A model generated the notes under the pieces. It was not told the origin of the DNA. It saw only the letters and a program-made list of their open reading frames with translations, and did no database searches. Below are positions 4,789-11,598 of a stretch of 11,598 nucleotides of DNA, piece after piece. The translations under genes were made by a program, and so were the position numbers. Positions within the stretch are counted from its first letter, which is position 1, and the number at the start of each line of letters is the position of its first letter. The DNA comes from an uncultured bacterium (GTDB lineage: Bacteria; CAIJMQ01), in contig CAIJMQ010000013.1 of NCBI GenBank assembly GCA_903821905.1, positions 1-11,598 on the forward strand. Reading direction: 5' to 3'.

Positions 4789-5604
4789 TTATTTTAACCC
4801 CACAAAACCTTCCTCTTCTACTAATTTTTGGCCTTCGGCGCTCTTTATAAAATCAATCAATTCTTTAGCTAATCCTTTAGGTGTTCCATTTGTATACATA
4901 AACAAAGGTCTACCTATTGGATATTTATTGGTAAGTACTGTATCTTTTGTGGGCATTATTCCATCAATAGATAATGCTTTTACAGATGAAGAAATGAACC
5001 CTAATCCCACATATCCAATTGCACCAGGTGTGCTCGCTACAGTAGAAGAAACTGCCTGATTTGAGGCTTGCATTAAAGCATCCGTTCTGACTTTTTCGTT
5101 ATTTAAAACCAATGCACCAAATGCCTCAAAGGTGCCACTTGAAGTATCACGTGAGATAACTACTATCTTTTGGTCACCCCCACCTAATTGTGACCAGTTT
5201 GAGATTTTTCCAGTATAAATGTCTTTAACCTGATTCTTGGTTAAGGCGCTTATTTTATTCGTGGGATGGGCAATCACAGCAATACCATCCATGGCTATGA
5301 CGTGCGCTTTTATATCTCTGCCATTGCTAGCAGCTTTTTCTAATTCAGCGCTTTGTATAGGCCGTGAAGAATCGGCAATGTCACATGTCCCATCAATTAT
5401 TGAAGCAATCCCAACACCAGAGCCTCCCCCACGCACAATTATATCGGCTGAAGGATTTTTTTGCATAAATACCTCTGCTGTTCTTTGAGCAATCGGCAAA
5501 ACCGTTGTTGAACCTGCCAACACAATCTTTTCCGCAGCATGGGATAGAAACGAAAATCCCAAAAGAAATCCCATCAGGGTTACTACTGTAATTAGCTTTT
5601 TCAT
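4789..5604 (-). CDS. pstS: PstS, periplasmic phosphate-binding protein
   Basis: Captures phosphate in the periplasm and delivers it to PstCA. The 271-residue precursor has a Sec signal peptide (MKK, hydrophobic core ~4-20, likely cleavage after SHA at residue 23). Ligand-loop motifs are visible: AGSTT (30-34), RGGGSGVG (58-65), DSSR (78-81) and SRDTSSGTFEAF (151-162). The C-terminus EGFVGLK is usual for short PstS proteins. There is no lipobox cysteine after the signal, so it is predicted soluble. The start ATG has a strong AAAGGAGG ribosome binding site. A Pho-box-like array and a -10 box lie directly upstream, so it is the first gene of its own phosphate-controlled transcript. Confidence 0.96.
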   Translation of the reverse strand: MKKLITVVTLMGFLLGFSFLSHAAEKIVLAGSTTVLPIAQRTAEVFMQKNPSADIIVRGGGSGVGIASIIDGTCDIADSSRPIQSAELEKAASNGRDIKAHVIAMDGIAVIAHPTNKISALTKNQVKDIYTGKISNWSQLGGGDQKIVVISRDTSSGTFEAFGALVLNNEKVRTDALMQASNQAVSSTVASTPGAIGYVGLGFISSSVKALSIDGIMPTKDTVLTNKYPIGRPLFMYTNGTPKGLAKELIDFIKSAEGQKLVEEEGFVGLK

Positions 5605-5629
5605 CGTATCCTCCTTTTTCTATTCCAAT

Positions 5630-5682
5630 TTTATACTCTTAATTATTATTTGATATTAAGTTTATGTAAAATCTATGTAAAA
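5630..5682 (-). promoter_or_regulatory. Pho-box array and -10 box of the pstS promoter
   Basis: On the minus strand two identical 7-mers TTTTACA (5682-5676 and 5671-5665) are spaced 4 nt apart. CTTAATA (5660-5654) and a weaker ATAATAA (5649-5643) follow at the same spacing, giving four units with an 11-bp period. This is the 7-4-7 layout of PhoB half-sites; the sequence differs from the E. coli CTGTCAT consensus but keeps the form T-x-x-C-A-T in the first two units. A -10 box TATAAA (5635-5630) begins 7 nt after the last unit with no good -35, as expected for a PhoB-activated promoter. PhoB binding is inferred from the pattern and from the downstream pstS. Confidence 0.75.
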
Positions 5683-5691
5683 TTTATTTCG

Positions 5692-6984
5692 TTAAAACTT
5701 CATATTCCAATCTACTTGTACTACACCCTCAGGAGTATGGGGACTTTCTAACATCTGAGTGCGGTAAATATCAAATGAAAGCCAGGTGTTTTTAGCAAGA
5801 CCATACTGGAATATTAGTTCGTGCCCTTCTATGTCTGTTTTACCCCCCATACGGTCTGAATCCGGTAATATATCCAAAACTGCATCTTTTTCTAAACTGG
5901 CATAATTATAAGAAATTTGCCAATCTCCATGGTTTGCAATACTTGCAGCACCCAAACCTAAGCCAACCATATATCCTTCATTATGTGGTTTAGCATCTGT
6001 AAGCATATTTTTCACATATTCACCGAAGAAATTAAGCTGGGGAACATCGGCAAATAAGTTAAAATCCTTGAATGGTGTATTTATTGTGAGCTGAAAGGCA
6101 GGCATTATATTCGTAATATCTTGCCGGGGAGTACAAGTAGTCCCGGCGGACCAAGAATTGCTCGCGGAGCTACCCTTTAAGGCAGGATGTCCTGTACTAT
6201 GCCCAACCTCAAAATCATCATAAGCTAAAGCTGCTTTTAAAGAGATTCTATCGTTAAAACTATAGATGATACCGGGTTGGACATGGAATAAGACGTCATC
6301 TTTTTTAGATGCGTCCTCTTGTAAAACAAGAAAGTCTCCTTTAACAAAGAAAATTGTAGCAGGATTCAATTGCTTGGAGACGTCAAGCACAACTCCTTCG
6401 GGAGTTATATCAGTGTCCCACATCAAATCTCCCGGCTCCCACAGCGCATCTTTTAACAATACCTTTCCTCCTATAACATTCAGCCACGGTGTAGCCATAT
6501 ATTTTGCGTAGGCATAGTCTAAATCTATAGGGTGTTTTGAGAACGAATCTGTAAAAGTTTGGTTTGTGGAACGGATGTAATCTTTATTAACTGTGGAACC
6601 TCCTGTATCACTAAGACCAGTTGCTAATCCTGCGCTGATTAATAACTTGTCGTTAGCTTTATAATCTGTCCCTAATCTAAGTCTAATCCGCCCTCTATTT
6701 CTATCGTCAGCATTTTCATTCACATGGTCATTCTGATATCTTAATCTAAAATCTCCTTTCATCTTTACATTCTGCACCCACTGTGGAAGGCTTGAAGATT
6801 TTCCTTCAGCTACATCCTTTTTAACTTGTTCTTCTGTTTCTGTTTTTATTTCCTGTGCTTCACCAGCACTTAAAACTCCTTTTTCAACTAACTTTTGCAA
6901 AAGAATATCCACGTCACTCGCAAATACCCTACCTGTAAACAACATCATTACGGACACCAACATTGTTAAGAACTTCTTTTTCAT
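5692..6984 (-). CDS. Putative outer-membrane porin, likely for phosphate uptake
   Basis: A 430-residue precursor with a signal peptide (MKKKFLTMLVSVMMLFTGRVFA, likely cleavage after residue 22). A charged helical segment (~25-62, rich in E, K and Q) is next and may form a coiled coil or bind peptidoglycan, then a long barrel-like region with alternating aromatic and polar strands such as GDFRLRYQND (77-86). It ends WNMKF with the C-terminal phenylalanine recognised by the barrel-assembly machinery. This is the layout of the 'putative porin' group of diderm bacteria; I cannot assign a closer family. It starts at ATG 6984 after a GGAGGAAGG ribosome binding site. Its place between phoR and pstS, downstream of a Pho-box-like array, suggests a role like that of PhoE or OprP, but specificity for phosphate is inference. 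Confidence 0.85.
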   Translation of the reverse strand: MKKKFLTMLVSVMMLFTGRVFASDVDILLQKLVEKGVLSAGEAQEIKTETEEQVKKDVAEGKSSSLPQWVQNVKMKGDFRLRYQNDHVNENADDRNRGRIRLRLGTDYKANDKLLISAGLATGLSDTGGSTVNKDYIRSTNQTFTDSFSKHPIDLDYAYAKYMATPWLNVIGGKVLLKDALWEPGDLMWDTDITPEGVVLDVSKQLNPATIFFVKGDFLVLQEDASKKDDVLFHVQPGIIYSFNDRISLKAALAYDDFEVGHSTGHPALKGSSASNSWSAGTTCTPRQDITNIMPAFQLTINTPFKDFNLFADVPQLNFFGEYVKNMLTDAKPHNEGYMVGLGLGAASIANHGDWQISYNYASLEKDAVLDILPDSDRMGGKTDIEGHELIFQYGLAKNTWLSFDIYRTQMLESPHTPEGVVQVDWNMKF

Positions 6985-7172
6985 GCTCCCTTCCTCCTTT
7001 TCTTTTTCCTATAATTAAGTGATACACCCCATCTTTTCTTTTTACTATAGATGTGTGGAACAACTGACGTTTAGTTTCTTTTAAAGAAATATTTGCCACC
7101 CCATTTTTTACCCCTCCTTTCTTAATGGTTTCCATTTCAATTGAATGCATATAAATTAAAACCTCTTCCGAT
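6985..7172 (-). other. Leader region between the small gene and the porin, with a possible 7-codon ORF and a longer basic ORF
   Basis: This 188-nt stretch separates the small gene from the porin. A ribosome binding site AGGAGGGG precedes ATG 7104, which opens a 7-codon ORF (MGWQIFL, stop at 7083-7081); it could be a leader peptide or chance. In another frame an open stretch runs from ATG 7150 to 6929 (73 residues, very basic, e.g. SIVKRKDGVYHLIIGKRKGG), overlapping the porin start by 56 nt. It has only a weak distant ribosome binding site and no recognisable domain, so I do not call it a gene. No convincing hairpin was found by eye. Confidence 0.3.
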
Positions 7173-7286
7173 TCAGACCCCCAAAGTGCGGTTATCAAAA
7201 TCAATGACTCTTCTCGCTTCTTGGTCTATGATTTTGTTAAAGAAGTCTGTTATGGAGTTTAGTATCTGTGAAAATATTCTTTTCAT
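7173..7286 (-). CDS. Small 37-residue amphipathic protein, first gene of a Pho-controlled transcript
   Basis: ATG 7286 is preceded by AAAGGAGGTG at 7300-7291, a near-perfect Shine-Dalgarno 4 nt from the start, and the frame runs 37 codons to TGA (7175-7173). The N-terminal half (MKRIFSQILNSITDFFNKII) places I, F and L at positions 4, 5, 8, 9, 12, 15, 16, 19 and 20, the periodicity of an amphipathic helix. The C-terminal part (DQEARRVIDFDNRTLGV) is charged. There is no signal peptide or transmembrane segment, so a peripheral membrane or protein-binding peptide is plausible. It lies about 22 nt downstream of the -10 box of a promoter with four Pho-box-like units and 188 nt upstream of the porin. 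I recognise no family. Translation is well supported by the ribosome binding site; function is unknown. Confidence 0.65.
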   Translation of the reverse strand: MKRIFSQILNSITDFFNKIIDQEARRVIDFDNRTLGV

Positions 7287-7290
7287 ACCA

Positions 7291-7300
7291 CACCTCCTTT
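7291..7300 (-). promoter_or_regulatory. Strong ribosome binding site of the small protein gene
   Basis: AAAGGAGGTG on the minus strand matches the anti-Shine-Dalgarno sequence almost completely and sits 4 nt before ATG 7286. It is among the best ribosome binding sites in the window and is the main reason to accept the 37-codon frame as a real gene. Confidence 0.75.
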
Positions 7301-7315
7301 TTATTCTTTGAGTAA

Positions 7316-7370
7316 AGTATAAAATGCAGGTGTTAAGTATGCTTCAAGAAGAGGTTAAACGTAGGTAAAA
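7316..7370 (-). promoter_or_regulatory. Pho-box array and -10 box upstream of the small gene and porin
   Basis: On the minus strand four 7-mers occur at an exact 11-bp period: TTTTACC (7370-7364), TTTAACC (7359-7353), CTTGAAG (7348-7342) and CTTAACA (7337-7331), each separated by 4 nt. A -10 box TATACT (7321-7316) starts 9 nt after the last unit. The geometry and the unit sequences resemble the array before pstS. It lies in the 105-nt gap after phoR, so the small gene and porin probably have their own phosphate-starvation promoter. Binding by PhoB is inferred. Confidence 0.7.
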
Positions 7371-7391: not shown

Positions 7392-9158
7392 TTATTTAGG
7401 AAGGTAAAAAAAGAATTTTGAACCAAAGCCCTCGGTGCTCTCTACTCCGACATTACCATCGTGCAATTCAATAATATGTTTTACAATAGAAAGACCTAGG
7501 CCTGTTCCGCCAAGCTGGCTCGAACGAGCTTTATCTACTCGATAGAACCGCTCAAAAATACGAGGGATATCTTTTACGGGGATACCAATTCCAGAATCTT
7601 CAATTACGATTTTAATTTTATCAGGCAAATCTTCGTGTCTAATATTAATGGTTCCTTTCTCTCGGTTAAACTTTATGGCATTATCTATCAGATTAGTTAA
7701 CACTTGCTCTATTTTATTTTTGTCAATTTTTAATGATAAATTAGCGGGTAACTCGTTATTTAGCTTAATATTTTTTAGCTGAGACTTAAAGCTATCTAAA
7801 ACCTGCTTGGATAAATTTCTAATATTGGTATCTTCTTTTTGCAGGATTACTTCCTTCGATTCCAGATATGACAATTTCAGCAAGTCATTAACTAAATTAT
7901 CTAAACGATTAGCATGTTCCTGAATAACTTTAAGAAAATTGCGACTATTAACTTTATCTTCTAATGCTCCATCTAATAAAGTTTCAATGAATCCTTTAAT
8001 AGAAGTGAGGGGAGTTTTTAACTCATGAGAAACATTTGCTACAAAATCTTTTCGGACAGTCTCTAATTTTCGTGCTTCTGTAATATCATGTATGACTAAA
8101 AGACATGCGCTGGGAGTTTTATTTTCAAAAATGGGGATGGCATTTATTTCAAAAACCTTCTTTAGTGGCCAAACTAAATAAAGCTCTTTAGATATGAACT
8201 TGCCGTTTTGCAAAGCAGTTTTAATAATTTCTTCAATATCATTATTGCGAATCACCTCCAGAAAATTCTTATCTTTGGACGATTCTTTTGTAATGCTAAA
8301 TATCTTTTCTGCACTGGAATTTAAAGAGATTATTTTATTTGAACTGTCTACAACCACAATACCTTCAATCATGCTTTCAAGGATTGCTTTTGATTGCTGG
8401 TTCTGCAGTTGAACTTGAGCGATTTTTTCTTCCAGATTCTTTGCCATTGCGTTGAGAATTTGAGCGAGTTCGCCTATCTCATCATTTGAGGCAAGCAGTA
8501 TCTCATGCTTAAAATCACCTTTAGCAAAGTTACGAGAGATATTCATAATTTTGTTGATAGGTCTAATAATACCGGCTGCAAACATAGAACCCAGAACAAG
8601 AGCAACACCTAACGCAAAAAACAAGCTTAAAAGAATGGTTCTCCTGATTATGCCCAACGTATTCTTCACATTAGACAGAGGTAAGGCTAACCTTAGAACA
8701 CCACGTGTTGCACCTTGATACATAATTGGTTTTGCTATATACAACATGTCAATTTTTAAAGTTGTAGAGTATCTAATCTCTTCGCCAATTTCTCCATCTA
8801 AGGCGGCTTTCACCTCGGGGCGAGAGGCATGATTTTCTAACTTGGCAGTCGCTTCCAAGCTTTCGTCTGAATCGGCAAGAACTTTGCCTTGGGTATTAAT
8901 AATCGTAACTCTTGAATTAGCTTTTTGACCTAATTGTTTTGAAAATGAGTCCAGATAAATGATATCTTCTTTAATTAGATTTTCTATGATTAACTGGTTT
9001 CCAATGAGGTCTATATCTTTTAAGAGTGATGATTTGATTTCCTGAAGTAAATTTTCTTCCAGATTTTTGTCTAGAAAATATGCAACGAATCCGAACGAAA
9101 TAAGAATTATGAGGATATAGGAAAGAGCTAACTTGATTTTAATGCTTTTAATCTTCAT
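7392..9158 (-). CDS. phoR: PhoR-type sensor histidine kinase
   Basis: Inner-membrane kinase that phosphorylates PhoB under phosphate limitation. The 588 residues contain TM1 (~8-28), an extracytoplasmic sensor region of about 145 residues (29-173), TM2 (~174-197), HAMP (~195-250), PAS (~255-362), HisKA with phospho-acceptor His378 in FVANVSHELKTPLTSI, and an HATPase_c domain. The ATPase shows the N box NLIDNAIKF (489-497), G1 DSGIG (521-525), F box FERF (535-538) and G2 GGTGLGLSIV (550-559). The large periplasmic domain makes it longer than E. coli PhoR (about 430) and closer in layout to Bacillus PhoR. The ATG lies inside the phoB end (11-nt overlap) without its own clear ribosome binding site, so it is translationally coupled. 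The phosphate role follows from the neighbours. Confidence 0.93.
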   Translation of the reverse strand: MKIKSIKIKLALSYILIILISFGFVAYFLDKNLEENLLQEIKSSLLKDIDLIGNQLIIENLIKEDIIYLDSFSKQLGQKANSRVTIINTQGKVLADSDESLEATAKLENHASRPEVKAALDGEIGEEIRYSTTLKIDMLYIAKPIMYQGATRGVLRLALPLSNVKNTLGIIRRTILLSLFFALGVALVLGSMFAAGIIRPINKIMNISRNFAKGDFKHEILLASNDEIGELAQILNAMAKNLEEKIAQVQLQNQQSKAILESMIEGIVVVDSSNKIISLNSSAEKIFSITKESSKDKNFLEVIRNNDIEEIIKTALQNGKFISKELYLVWPLKKVFEINAIPIFENKTPSACLLVIHDITEARKLETVRKDFVANVSHELKTPLTSIKGFIETLLDGALEDKVNSRNFLKVIQEHANRLDNLVNDLLKLSYLESKEVILQKEDTNIRNLSKQVLDSFKSQLKNIKLNNELPANLSLKIDKNKIEQVLTNLIDNAIKFNREKGTINIRHEDLPDKIKIVIEDSGIGIPVKDIPRIFERFYRVDKARSSQLGGTGLGLSIVKHIIELHDGNVGVESTEGFGSKFFFYLPK

Positions 9159-9843
9159 CTACTTTAAAGCGATAACCGTAATTTTTAACCGTGACGATGT
9201 GGCTTGCCTCACTCTTTAGTTTCTTGCGGAGACTACGGATATGCACATCTACAGTCCTGGTCTGTATTTCTAAAGCTTGGTCAAAACCCCAGATAGAATC
9301 CAAGAGGTAATTTCTTGATAAAACCCTGCCTTTGGCTTTTATCAAAGCGGTTAATAACTCAAATTCTTTTGAAGTGAGTTCTATAAGTTTATTTTTAATA
9401 CTAACCGAAATTTTTGAAGAATCTACTATTAAGTCGCCTATTTTTATAACTTCAGGTGTTTTATCTTTTTCTTTTACCCGGCGTAAAACTGCTTTGATTC
9501 TGGCAATTAACTCGCGCGGGCTAAACGGCTTAGTTACATAATCATCGGCCCCCAATTCAAGGCCTACAACTTTATCTGATTCATGAGTTTTTGCTGTAAG
9601 CATAATAATAGGGATAGCAGATGTTTTACTTTCTTTTTTTAGAATCTTGCAGACCTCTAACCCATCAATTTGGGGTAGCATTAGGTCCAATATAATTAAG
9701 TCCGGATGTTCTTTCTTAGCTAAATCTAATGCGTCCTCTCCATTATTTGCTGAAACTGTTCTGAAGCCTTCTTTCTTTAAGTTGTAATCCAACATTTTTA
9801 CTATGTCTTTTTCATCATCCACAACTAAAATTTTTTCTTTCAT
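9148..9843 (-). CDS. phoB: PhoB, response regulator of the phosphate regulon
   Basis: An OmpR/PhoB-family transcription factor of 231 residues. The receiver domain (~1-122) has the acidic pair D9-D10, phospho-acceptor D53 (LIILDLMLP), T83 and K105 (VTKPFSPREL). The winged-helix DNA-binding domain (~130-228) carries the recognition-helix region RTVDVHIRSLRKKL (196-209) and the C-terminal hairpin TVKNYGYRFKV. It starts at ATG 9843 after an AAAGGAT ribosome binding site and overlaps phoR by 11 nt. It is expected to bind the 11-bp-periodic arrays upstream of pstS and of the small gene. It is divergent from the HTH gene at 10031, with 187 nt between them. All catalytic residues are intact. Confidence 0.95.
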   Translation of the reverse strand: MKEKILVVDDEKDIVKMLDYNLKKEGFRTVSANNGEDALDLAKKEHPDLIILDLMLPQIDGLEVCKILKKESKTSAIPIIMLTAKTHESDKVVGLELGADDYVTKPFSPRELIARIKAVLRRVKEKDKTPEVIKIGDLIVDSSKISVSIKNKLIELTSKEFELLTALIKAKGRVLSRNYLLDSIWGFDQALEIQTRTVDVHIRSLRKKLKSEASHIVTVKNYGYRFKVDED

Positions 9844-10030: not shown

Positions 10031-10321
10031 ATGGAACAGGATATAGATCCAAAAGATATACCATTAGTATATACATTGAATGTCACAATCAATCTTAATG
10101 ATTACAATCCCAAATACCCAAAAAATCCGAAGACTTTTGGTGAAAGGATTAGAAAGAAACGGATGGATTTAGGTTTAACAATGAAAGAAGTTTCCCAGAA
10201 ATTAGGAGTTTCGGAAACAACTATACATAACTGGGAAATAAAAGGAAGAAAACCTTACAGAAGAACAGAAGAGAAACTTAGGGAAATTCTTGGCTTAAGG
10301 AAGAAAAAAGTCTCTATCTAA
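10031..10321 (+). CDS. Small one-domain HTH (Xre-like) DNA-binding protein
   Basis: A 96-residue protein with an N-terminal arm (MEQDIDPKDIPLVYTLNVTI, then NLNDYNPKYPKNP) followed by a single Xre-type HTH (~36-88: FGERIRKKRMDLGL, EVSQKLGVSETTIHNWE). The start is secure: ATG 10031 follows AAAAAGGAGGTG with 5-nt spacing. It is a paralog of the protein at 679-1140, sharing the arm and first HTH but lacking the second HTH domain. Its last 27 bases overlap the 3' end of the convergent comM copy. It is probably a DNA-binding regulator; the target is unknown. Being divergent from phoB, it could in principle act on that promoter, but nothing in the sequence shows this. Confidence 0.85.
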   Translation: MEQDIDPKDIPLVYTLNVTINLNDYNPKYPKNPKTFGERIRKKRMDLGLTMKEVSQKLGVSETTIHNWEIKGRKPYRRTEEKLREILGLRKKKVSI

Positions 10322-11598
10322 AGTTCTATATTGAATTGCTTCTGACAGATGCTCTTTATTTATCTGTTCTACACCGGCAAGATCAGCGATAGTTCTGGAT
10401 ACTTTCAATATCTTATCATAGGCTCTGGCGCTGAGACTCAGATGAAACATTGCCATTTTTAACAGCTCCATTTCTTCTTTGCCTAAAGTACAAAACTTGC
10501 GTGTCTGTCTATGACCCATCTGGGCATTACACATAATATTTTCATTCTTTTTACCTTCAGAAGAAAATCTTTCTCTTTGAATTGCTCTTGCTTTGTTGAC
10601 TCTTTCTCTGATTTGAGCGGAACTTTCAGCAGGTATGTCGCTACTTAATTCCTGATAATTGATAGGAGGAACCTCAATCTGAATATCTATTCTGTCAAGC
10701 AAAGGCCCTGAAATCTTGGAGCGGTACTTCTGTATTTGGTATGGAGTACACCTACATGAAGATTTAAGTTGCCATTCTGTACCACAGGGACAAGGATTCA
10801 TTGCACAGACTAAAGTGAAGCGAGCAGGATAGCTTAAAGAACCACTTGCTCTTGATATGTTTATCATTCCGTCTTCAAGCGGCTGACGAAGAGCTTCCAG
10901 AACATCACGATTAAATTCCGGTAATTCATCCAAGAAAAGAACACCGTTATGCGCAAGACTAATCTCCCCCGGATGAGGATACTGACCGCCTCCCACAAGT
11001 GCCACATCGGATGTCGTATGATGAGGAGAACGAAAAGGCCGTGATGCCACTAAAGGGCTATTGGGTGTCACAAAACCTACCACCGAATGAATTTTAGTTG
11101 TCTGGATAGCTTCTTCAAGAGTAATGTCAGGCATAATAGTAGGCAATCTTCTCGCCAACATTGTTTTCCCGGCACCCGGCGGCCCAATCATAATAATATT
11201 ATGGCCTCCCGAAATAGCTACTTCTAAAGCTCTTTTGATGTGATATTGACCCCTAACTTCAGAAAAATCCATAGAGTAGGAACGGGTATTCTTAAAAATT
11301 TTCTCAATATCAAGTTCGACAGGTTCTATCTTTTCCTCGCCATTCAAAAAATTAACACATTGAGCTAAATTTTTTATGGGATATACATTCAGATTTTCAA
11401 TTATGCCTGCTTCAATATGATTTTCGTACGGAACTACCAAAGAATATTGCTTCTCTTTAGTAAATATAGCTATAGGAAGAATGCCTTTTGTACTTCTTAA
11501 GGTGCCGTCTAAAGTTTACGAAGCGATAATAACTGCCAAGGAAACCGCGTCGTTGGCAAAACCTAGCGCATTAAATATAGGTGTGTCAAAAACGGATA
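10295..11598 (-). pseudogene. comM: comM/yifB with intact AAA+ core but broken N-terminal domain
   Basis: The frame from 11515 to 10295 holds the AAA+ Mg-chelatase core: Walker A GPPGAGKT (11185-11162), MPDITLEEAIQTTKIHSVVG, the RPFRSPHHTTSDVALVGGG block, Walker B VLFLDE, sensor AMNPCPCG with a cysteine cluster (CPCG...CRC), arginine finger SGPLLDRIDI and a full C-terminal domain. The frame continues upstream of the first possible TTG (11440) through TLDGTLRSTKGILPIA, which is ComM N-terminal-domain sequence, and then meets TAA at 11518-11516. Beyond the stop, in the same frame, SVFDTPIFNALGFANDAVSLA resembles the early ComM pattern P-x-F-N-x-x-G-x-x-x-x-A-V-S-x-A. About 55-70 residues expected between these parts are missing. 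I infer an internal deletion plus a stop, with the true 5' end outside the window. A shortened but active ATPase started at a downstream codon cannot be excluded. Confidence 0.7.

Follow-up and report, generated by a model that had tools for sequence, protein, structure and literature searches.

Small Proteins in Phosphate Control

Small proteins of the DUF1127 type have only recently been shown to bind the sensor kinase PhoR. Specifically, small DUF1127 proteins of Agrobacterium bind PhoR and damp pst expression, and E. coli YjiS also binds PhoR (PMC12501420). MgrB binds the periplasmic domain of a different protein, PhoQ (PMC12501420). Here, we compare these systems with a small gene lying directly after phoR in the genome of an uncultured bacterium, and with its relatives in Omnitrophota, a phylum that has seen hardly any experiments.

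The proteins encoded by these genes share with DUF1127 (PF06568; the Agrobacterium SDPs and E. coli YjiS) a length of about 50 residues or less, a basic character, and a tie to phosphate control. Unlike DUF1127 genes, the Omnitrophota gene is linked to phoR and a porin gene and lies under a Pho box. Membership in DUF1127 was rejected: the PF06568 profile matches none of the 28 members searched and gives nothing over its cut-off in ten genomes, and arginine accounts for 8.3% of residues over 35 members (10.8% in the protein studied here) versus about 14% in DUF1127. Thus, the resemblance lies in a possible mode of action, not in ancestry. With MgrB and other small sensor-kinase regulators the likeness is one of logic only, namely that a short peptide may adjust the very two-component system by which it is induced; MgrB makes a periplasmic contact with PhoQ, whereas the Omnitrophota family reads as a surface amphipathic helix. 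Leader and arrest peptides are likewise the first short open reading frame (ORF) on a regulated transcript, but in the small-gene family the protein sequence is constrained and no RNA structure is found.

A Conserved Small Gene

The window, i.e., the whole 11,598-nucleotide stretch of DNA analyzed, carries a pho cassette on its minus strand. A phoB-type response regulator gene (9148–9843; Response_reg and Trans_reg_C) is followed by phoR (7392–9158; HisKA, HATPase_c, HAMP, PAS, and Cache-type matches) and by the small gene (7173–7286), an ATG-initiated frame of 37 codons encoding MKRIFSQILNSITDFFNKIIDQEARRVIDFDNRTLGV. The next full-length gene of the predicted transcript specifies a Porin_5 porin (5692–6984; PF16930, E=6.7e-44). 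After it come a gene for a PstS-type phosphate-binding protein (4789–5604), identified by reading its translation, and the further Pst genes and phoU, whose translations, likewise read, give the order pstSCAB-phoU. The sequence-only reading from which this work started had placed the ORF between PhoR and a porin and had credited it with a strong ribosome binding site, and both points hold: the Shine-Dalgarno sequence AAAGGAGGTG lies at 7291–7300, 4 nt before the ATG. Its distance of about 22 nt from the -10 box to the ATG needs correction to 29 nt; 22 nt is roughly the distance from the predicted transcription start. A 91-residue frame overlapping the porin start (6929–7204) was set aside, as it has no relatives in the fetched loci. 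Between the small gene and the porin (about 7075–7120, minus strand) a strong Shine-Dalgarno sequence precedes an ATG and seven codons (MGWQIFL), possibly the remnant of a lost small gene.

Relatives of the small protein surfaced only by way of PhoR. When 84,980 species genomes were searched with the window's PhoR, dozens of Omnitrophota loci with about 53–63% identical PhoR proteins were retrieved, and tblastn within them located small-ORF relatives at the same place. Searching with the single sequence in 98 genomes, namely that of the window and those of its relatives, yielded nothing but chance matches besides the window itself. A ten-sequence profile matched 31 of 384 Omnitrophota genomes at E<=0.01, and a refined 28-sequence profile detects the family in 34 of the 384 at E<=0.001; the window's protein matches the family profile at E=1.7e-14. 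Among 290 genomes around the window's own, most of them from other phyla, the same profile search gave one convincing match, the window, and chance-level scores in the other 289. Weak matches outside Omnitrophota were rejected as lying in long frames, being partial, or containing stops. The curated set comprises 35 intact members.

Family members are 32–52 residues long and carry an invariant glutamate (E23); their N-terminal half is basic and amphipathic, their C-terminal half more acidic. The sequences of one subfamily close with approximately E-E-x-x-x-M-D-x-F-Y-x-Q-Y-A; the other, which includes the window's protein, has F-F-N-R-x-x-D-x-E-A-x-R. Three genomes carry two copies, and in two of these (G200 and G275) there is one of each subfamily. 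The window's protein has the invariant glutamate, a length within the family range, and a start at the family position, and its gene has the family's surroundings: Pho box and phoR upstream, porin downstream. No Pfam or NCBIfam entry covers the family; a Pfam PscD match (E=0.002, below its cut-off, in one member only) was rejected, a PDB sequence search returned nothing meaningful, and an Rfam scan had no match. These one-helix proteins of about 35 residues, found in many uncultured Omnitrophota, are an undescribed family. The original description of the window's protein as undescribed and led by a Pho promoter is borne out, and its frame is conserved in other species, something the sequence alone could not reveal. 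In many Omnitrophota the members appear to be made first when phosphate runs out.

The nucleotide record bears the marks of a coding sequence. In 14 disjoint pairs picked by nucleotide identity, 125, 74, and 184 differences fall at codon positions 1, 2, and 3 (p=5e-11), and BLOSUM62 scores sum to 1093 in the true frame versus 461 and 363 in the shifted frames, so the true frame alone is conserved. Most close pairs also show fewer amino-acid changes than a random-placement null, which is weaker evidence because protein identity served to rank those pairs. A chance ORF with a good Shine-Dalgarno sequence would fit the shortness of the frame and the pair formed by the window and locus L025, which by itself shows no significant coding bias (P=0.08); one further pair (L117–L148) shows no coding bias. 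Against chance stand frame, start, position, and codon-position bias, conserved across dozens of genomes, and the bias in the 14 pairs refutes that reading, leaving it a negligible probability. Conservation of frame, start, and ribosome binding site together with coding bias had been set beforehand as the test of the gene, and the gene survived it. The ribosome binding site calls for one correction: about a third of members do not conserve it, because their mRNAs are predicted to be leaderless. Specifically, in 12 members the ATG follows the -10 hexamer by exactly 6 nt, and the predicted transcription start therefore falls on the A of the ATG. The 37-codon frame is a real, conserved gene.

A Pho-Type Promoter

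The PhoB box of E. coli consists of CTGTCAT repeats and the PhoP box of B. subtilis of TTAACA repeats. Common to both species and to Omnitrophota are 11-bp direct repeats upstream of the -10 box. The Omnitrophota dialect, shared after phoR in most loci of the phylum, differs in reading TTTTACC.ACA TTTTACTTACC CTTGAAGCGGA TTTAAC, with TATACT at fixed spacing. In the window, the four 11-bp units noticed at the outset are present on the minus strand at 7327–7370 (TTTTACCTACG TTTAACCTCTT CTTGAAGCATA CTTAACACCTG), and the -10 hexamer TATACT, placed by alignment of 20 phoR-downstream promoters, lies at 7316–7321. The array has an autocorrelation of 0.52 for a period of 11 (shuffle P=0.0018).

A matrix built without the window (the array also occurs in other phoR loci) gives the window's Pho site a score of 62.5 and the next-best window site -2.7; on 20 simulated dinucleotide-Markov windows its maximum is -8.1. 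Sites after phoR score mostly 48–81 versus a shuffled maximum of -6 over 322,000 positions, and Pho boxes directly upstream of most family members score about 47–78 (shuffled maximum -6). A second promoter dialect with the same four-unit layout, read by eye, precedes some members: GTTCACA.AAA GTTCACA...C TTTAAGGAT...GTTACA. The promoter of the small gene escaped a sigma-70 scan because it lacks a -35 box, an element that activated promoters are expected to do without. The direct-repeat array at a fixed distance from the -10 box is the pattern of a PhoB-dependent transcript, and the claim is strong because array and spacing are conserved and the matrix scores lie far above the shuffled and simulated maxima. 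The small gene is thus very probably under PhoB-type control. The second-best Pho-box-like site of the window (about 5622–5682, minus strand, score -2.7) lies a short way upstream of the pstS-type gene; in related loci, the Pho boxes at the matching position are clearer.

A Probable Helix at the Membrane Surface

AlphaFold2, run on the family alignment, predicts one helix spanning residues 2–35 (mean pLDDT 90). In every one of the 35 members the N-terminal half carries a net positive charge, and the mean hydrophobic-moment z is 2.5. The amphipathic helix proposed for the window's protein is borne out by its moment (muH 0.76, shuffle p=0.004). The charged tail proposed alongside it holds only in part: the C-terminal half is mildly acidic and differs among relatives. 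Judged from composition and hydrophobic moment, the small protein is probably a helix on the cytoplasmic surface of the membrane.

Gene Neighborhood

Each of the 35 curated members is located in a pho locus, with phoR or a phoB-like regulator gene upstream; in most, the end of a PhoR-type kinase is found directly upstream. The next gene after about 20 members encodes a stand-alone receiver of roughly 130–170 residues (PF00072, confirmed in two loci). A Porin_5-type gene follows, directly or after the receiver gene, in 33 of the 34 members on long enough contigs. The exceptions are L025, where an intact copy sits beside a DUF2490 gene, and L116, where the contig ends. The L030 porin, missed by a text pattern, matches PF16930 (E=1.1e-50); the other downstream porins were called by a motif at the N terminus rather than by a family search in every case.

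Across phoR loci, the ORF is present in 8 of 20 Porin_5 loci versus 1 of 19 DUF2490 loci, and it tracks porin type at least as well as it tracks PhoR. Most loci with a 55–62% identical PhoR lack it; PhoR therefore does not need the small protein. In every informative pair on the PhoR tree, the ORF accompanies Porin_5 rather than DUF2490, never the reverse. The direction is consistent, but only 1–3 of these pairs are independent and the test is not significant.

Proposed Role and Rival Explanations

We propose the following course of events. When phosphate is scarce, phospho-PhoB would turn on the promoter of the small gene, usually the first cistron of a transcript running on to the porin (and in the window to pstSCAB-phoU), so that a peptide of 35–37 residues would be made at once, ahead of the porin. 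As a single amphipathic helix with a basic N-terminal half, the peptide would lie on the cytoplasmic face of the inner membrane. There, a conserved face around the invariant glutamate and the D-x-F-Y or E-A-x-R motif would contact a Pho-signaling partner, likeliest PhoR or the stand-alone receiver encoded downstream in many loci, and the peptide would provide feedback, tuning the Pho response or shutting it down. To this explanation as a whole, a first-cistron peptide on the Pho transcript acting as a membrane-surface feedback helix, we assign a probability of roughly 0.4. By analogy with the DUF1127 proteins that bind PhoR, the family most likely comprises cytoplasmic-face helices that would tune Pho signaling. 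The placement of the partner within Pho signaling, tentative in its own right, is favored by a gene position directly after phoR and directly before the receiver.

The main rival takes its support from the constant presence of the porin: as an accessory helix, the peptide would help the co-transcribed Porin_5 protein to be expressed, exported, or assembled when phosphate is lacking. The 33 of 34 downstream porin genes and the direction of the PhoR tree both fit. So do a decayed ORF, without start codon and with an internal TAA, in a DUF2490 locus (L029), second copies directly before the porin in some loci, and two loci (L114, L115) in which the small frame runs stop-free into the porin gene, which keeps its own Shine-Dalgarno sequence and start. 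Yet no signal peptide is evident, so the small protein should stay cytoplasmic; the receiver, not the porin, comes first after about 20 members; one intact copy stands beside DUF2490, several Porin_5 loci lack the ORF, and the independent tree pairs are too few for significance. Gene order fits a role with PhoR or the receiver and a role with the porin alike and does not decide between them; we regard the porin-linked role as unlikely.

Still less probable is an amphipathic surface peptide with no specific protein partner that would act on the inner membrane itself, remodeling or sensing it when phosphate is scarce. The basic amphipathic N-terminal half of every member and the single-helix prediction accord with such a role, but the conserved part is the C-terminal half, with its invariant glutamate and D-x-F-Y-x-Q, which suggests a protein contact. 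A leader peptide, whose translation or ribosome arrest at the end of the ORF would control the downstream genes while the product itself stays idle, would account for a short and often predicted leaderless first cistron and, in the D-x-F-Y-x-Q subfamily, for a conserved motif at fixed distance right before the stop codon. We consider it very unlikely: amino acids are constrained along the helix, no alternative or stable RNA structure in excess of expectation precedes the next gene (z -0.48 and -0.03), the distance from motif to stop varies in the window's subfamily, where the frame can even run on, and one copy (L023) is a later cistron, kilobases from phoR.

A larger arrangement can be imagined, although as a complete module it is speculative and rather improbable. 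A Pho box after phoR would drive an often leaderless mRNA for a PhoR-binding membrane-surface peptide and for a receiver, free of a DNA-binding domain, that would drain or relay the phosphoryl group of PhoR, all ahead of the porin and pst genes. Omnitrophota would then have a hitherto unknown Pho feedback module that resembles the DUF1127 proteins by convergence, not by sequence. With a second small family, unrelated to DUF1127, encoded beside phoR, it would seem that small peptides came to control phosphate sensing on more than one occasion. The present family adds an unlisted and strongly conserved small protein to one of the best-studied bacterial regulons, and its conserved positions lend themselves to a simple, direct test of binding.

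Other Small Frames and the Origin of the Contig

A second unlisted family, of about 62 residues (F-I-A-S-H-L-R-S-Q...E-S-L-K-x-I-E-x-N-L-R-K-L-R-K), occurs in 74 of 384 Omnitrophota genomes and has no convincing Pfam or NCBIfam match. Its genes lie downstream of the Pho promoter or the receiver and ahead of the porin, and the first family is often next to them (L034, L024, L041, L048, L051, L071, L073). Seven loci with DUF2490 instead of the porin (L025, L027, L028, L037, L058, L060, L064) contain another short frame, F-G-L-L-Y...E-R-R-E-D-E, which has a good Shine-Dalgarno sequence and overlaps the DUF2490 gene start out of frame. The Shine-Dalgarno sequence and start of the DUF2490 gene itself impose some of this conservation.

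The window's genome does not group with Omnitrophota genomes. Its PhoR shares about 60% identity with Omnitrophota PhoR and at best 40% with PhoR of its host's class relatives, in which the small ORF and Pho box are absent. Either the pho cassette was acquired from Omnitrophota by horizontal transfer or the contig was mis-binned; base composition does not clearly separate the contig from the host genome. On either side of the cassette lie related pieces, namely ComM-like ATPase sequence together with a helix-turn-helix protein (173–712, 679–1140, 10031–10321, and 10295–11440). These flanking pieces are 51% identical to each other and are the only copies found in the draft genome, and their relatedness suggests a duplication or insertion event.
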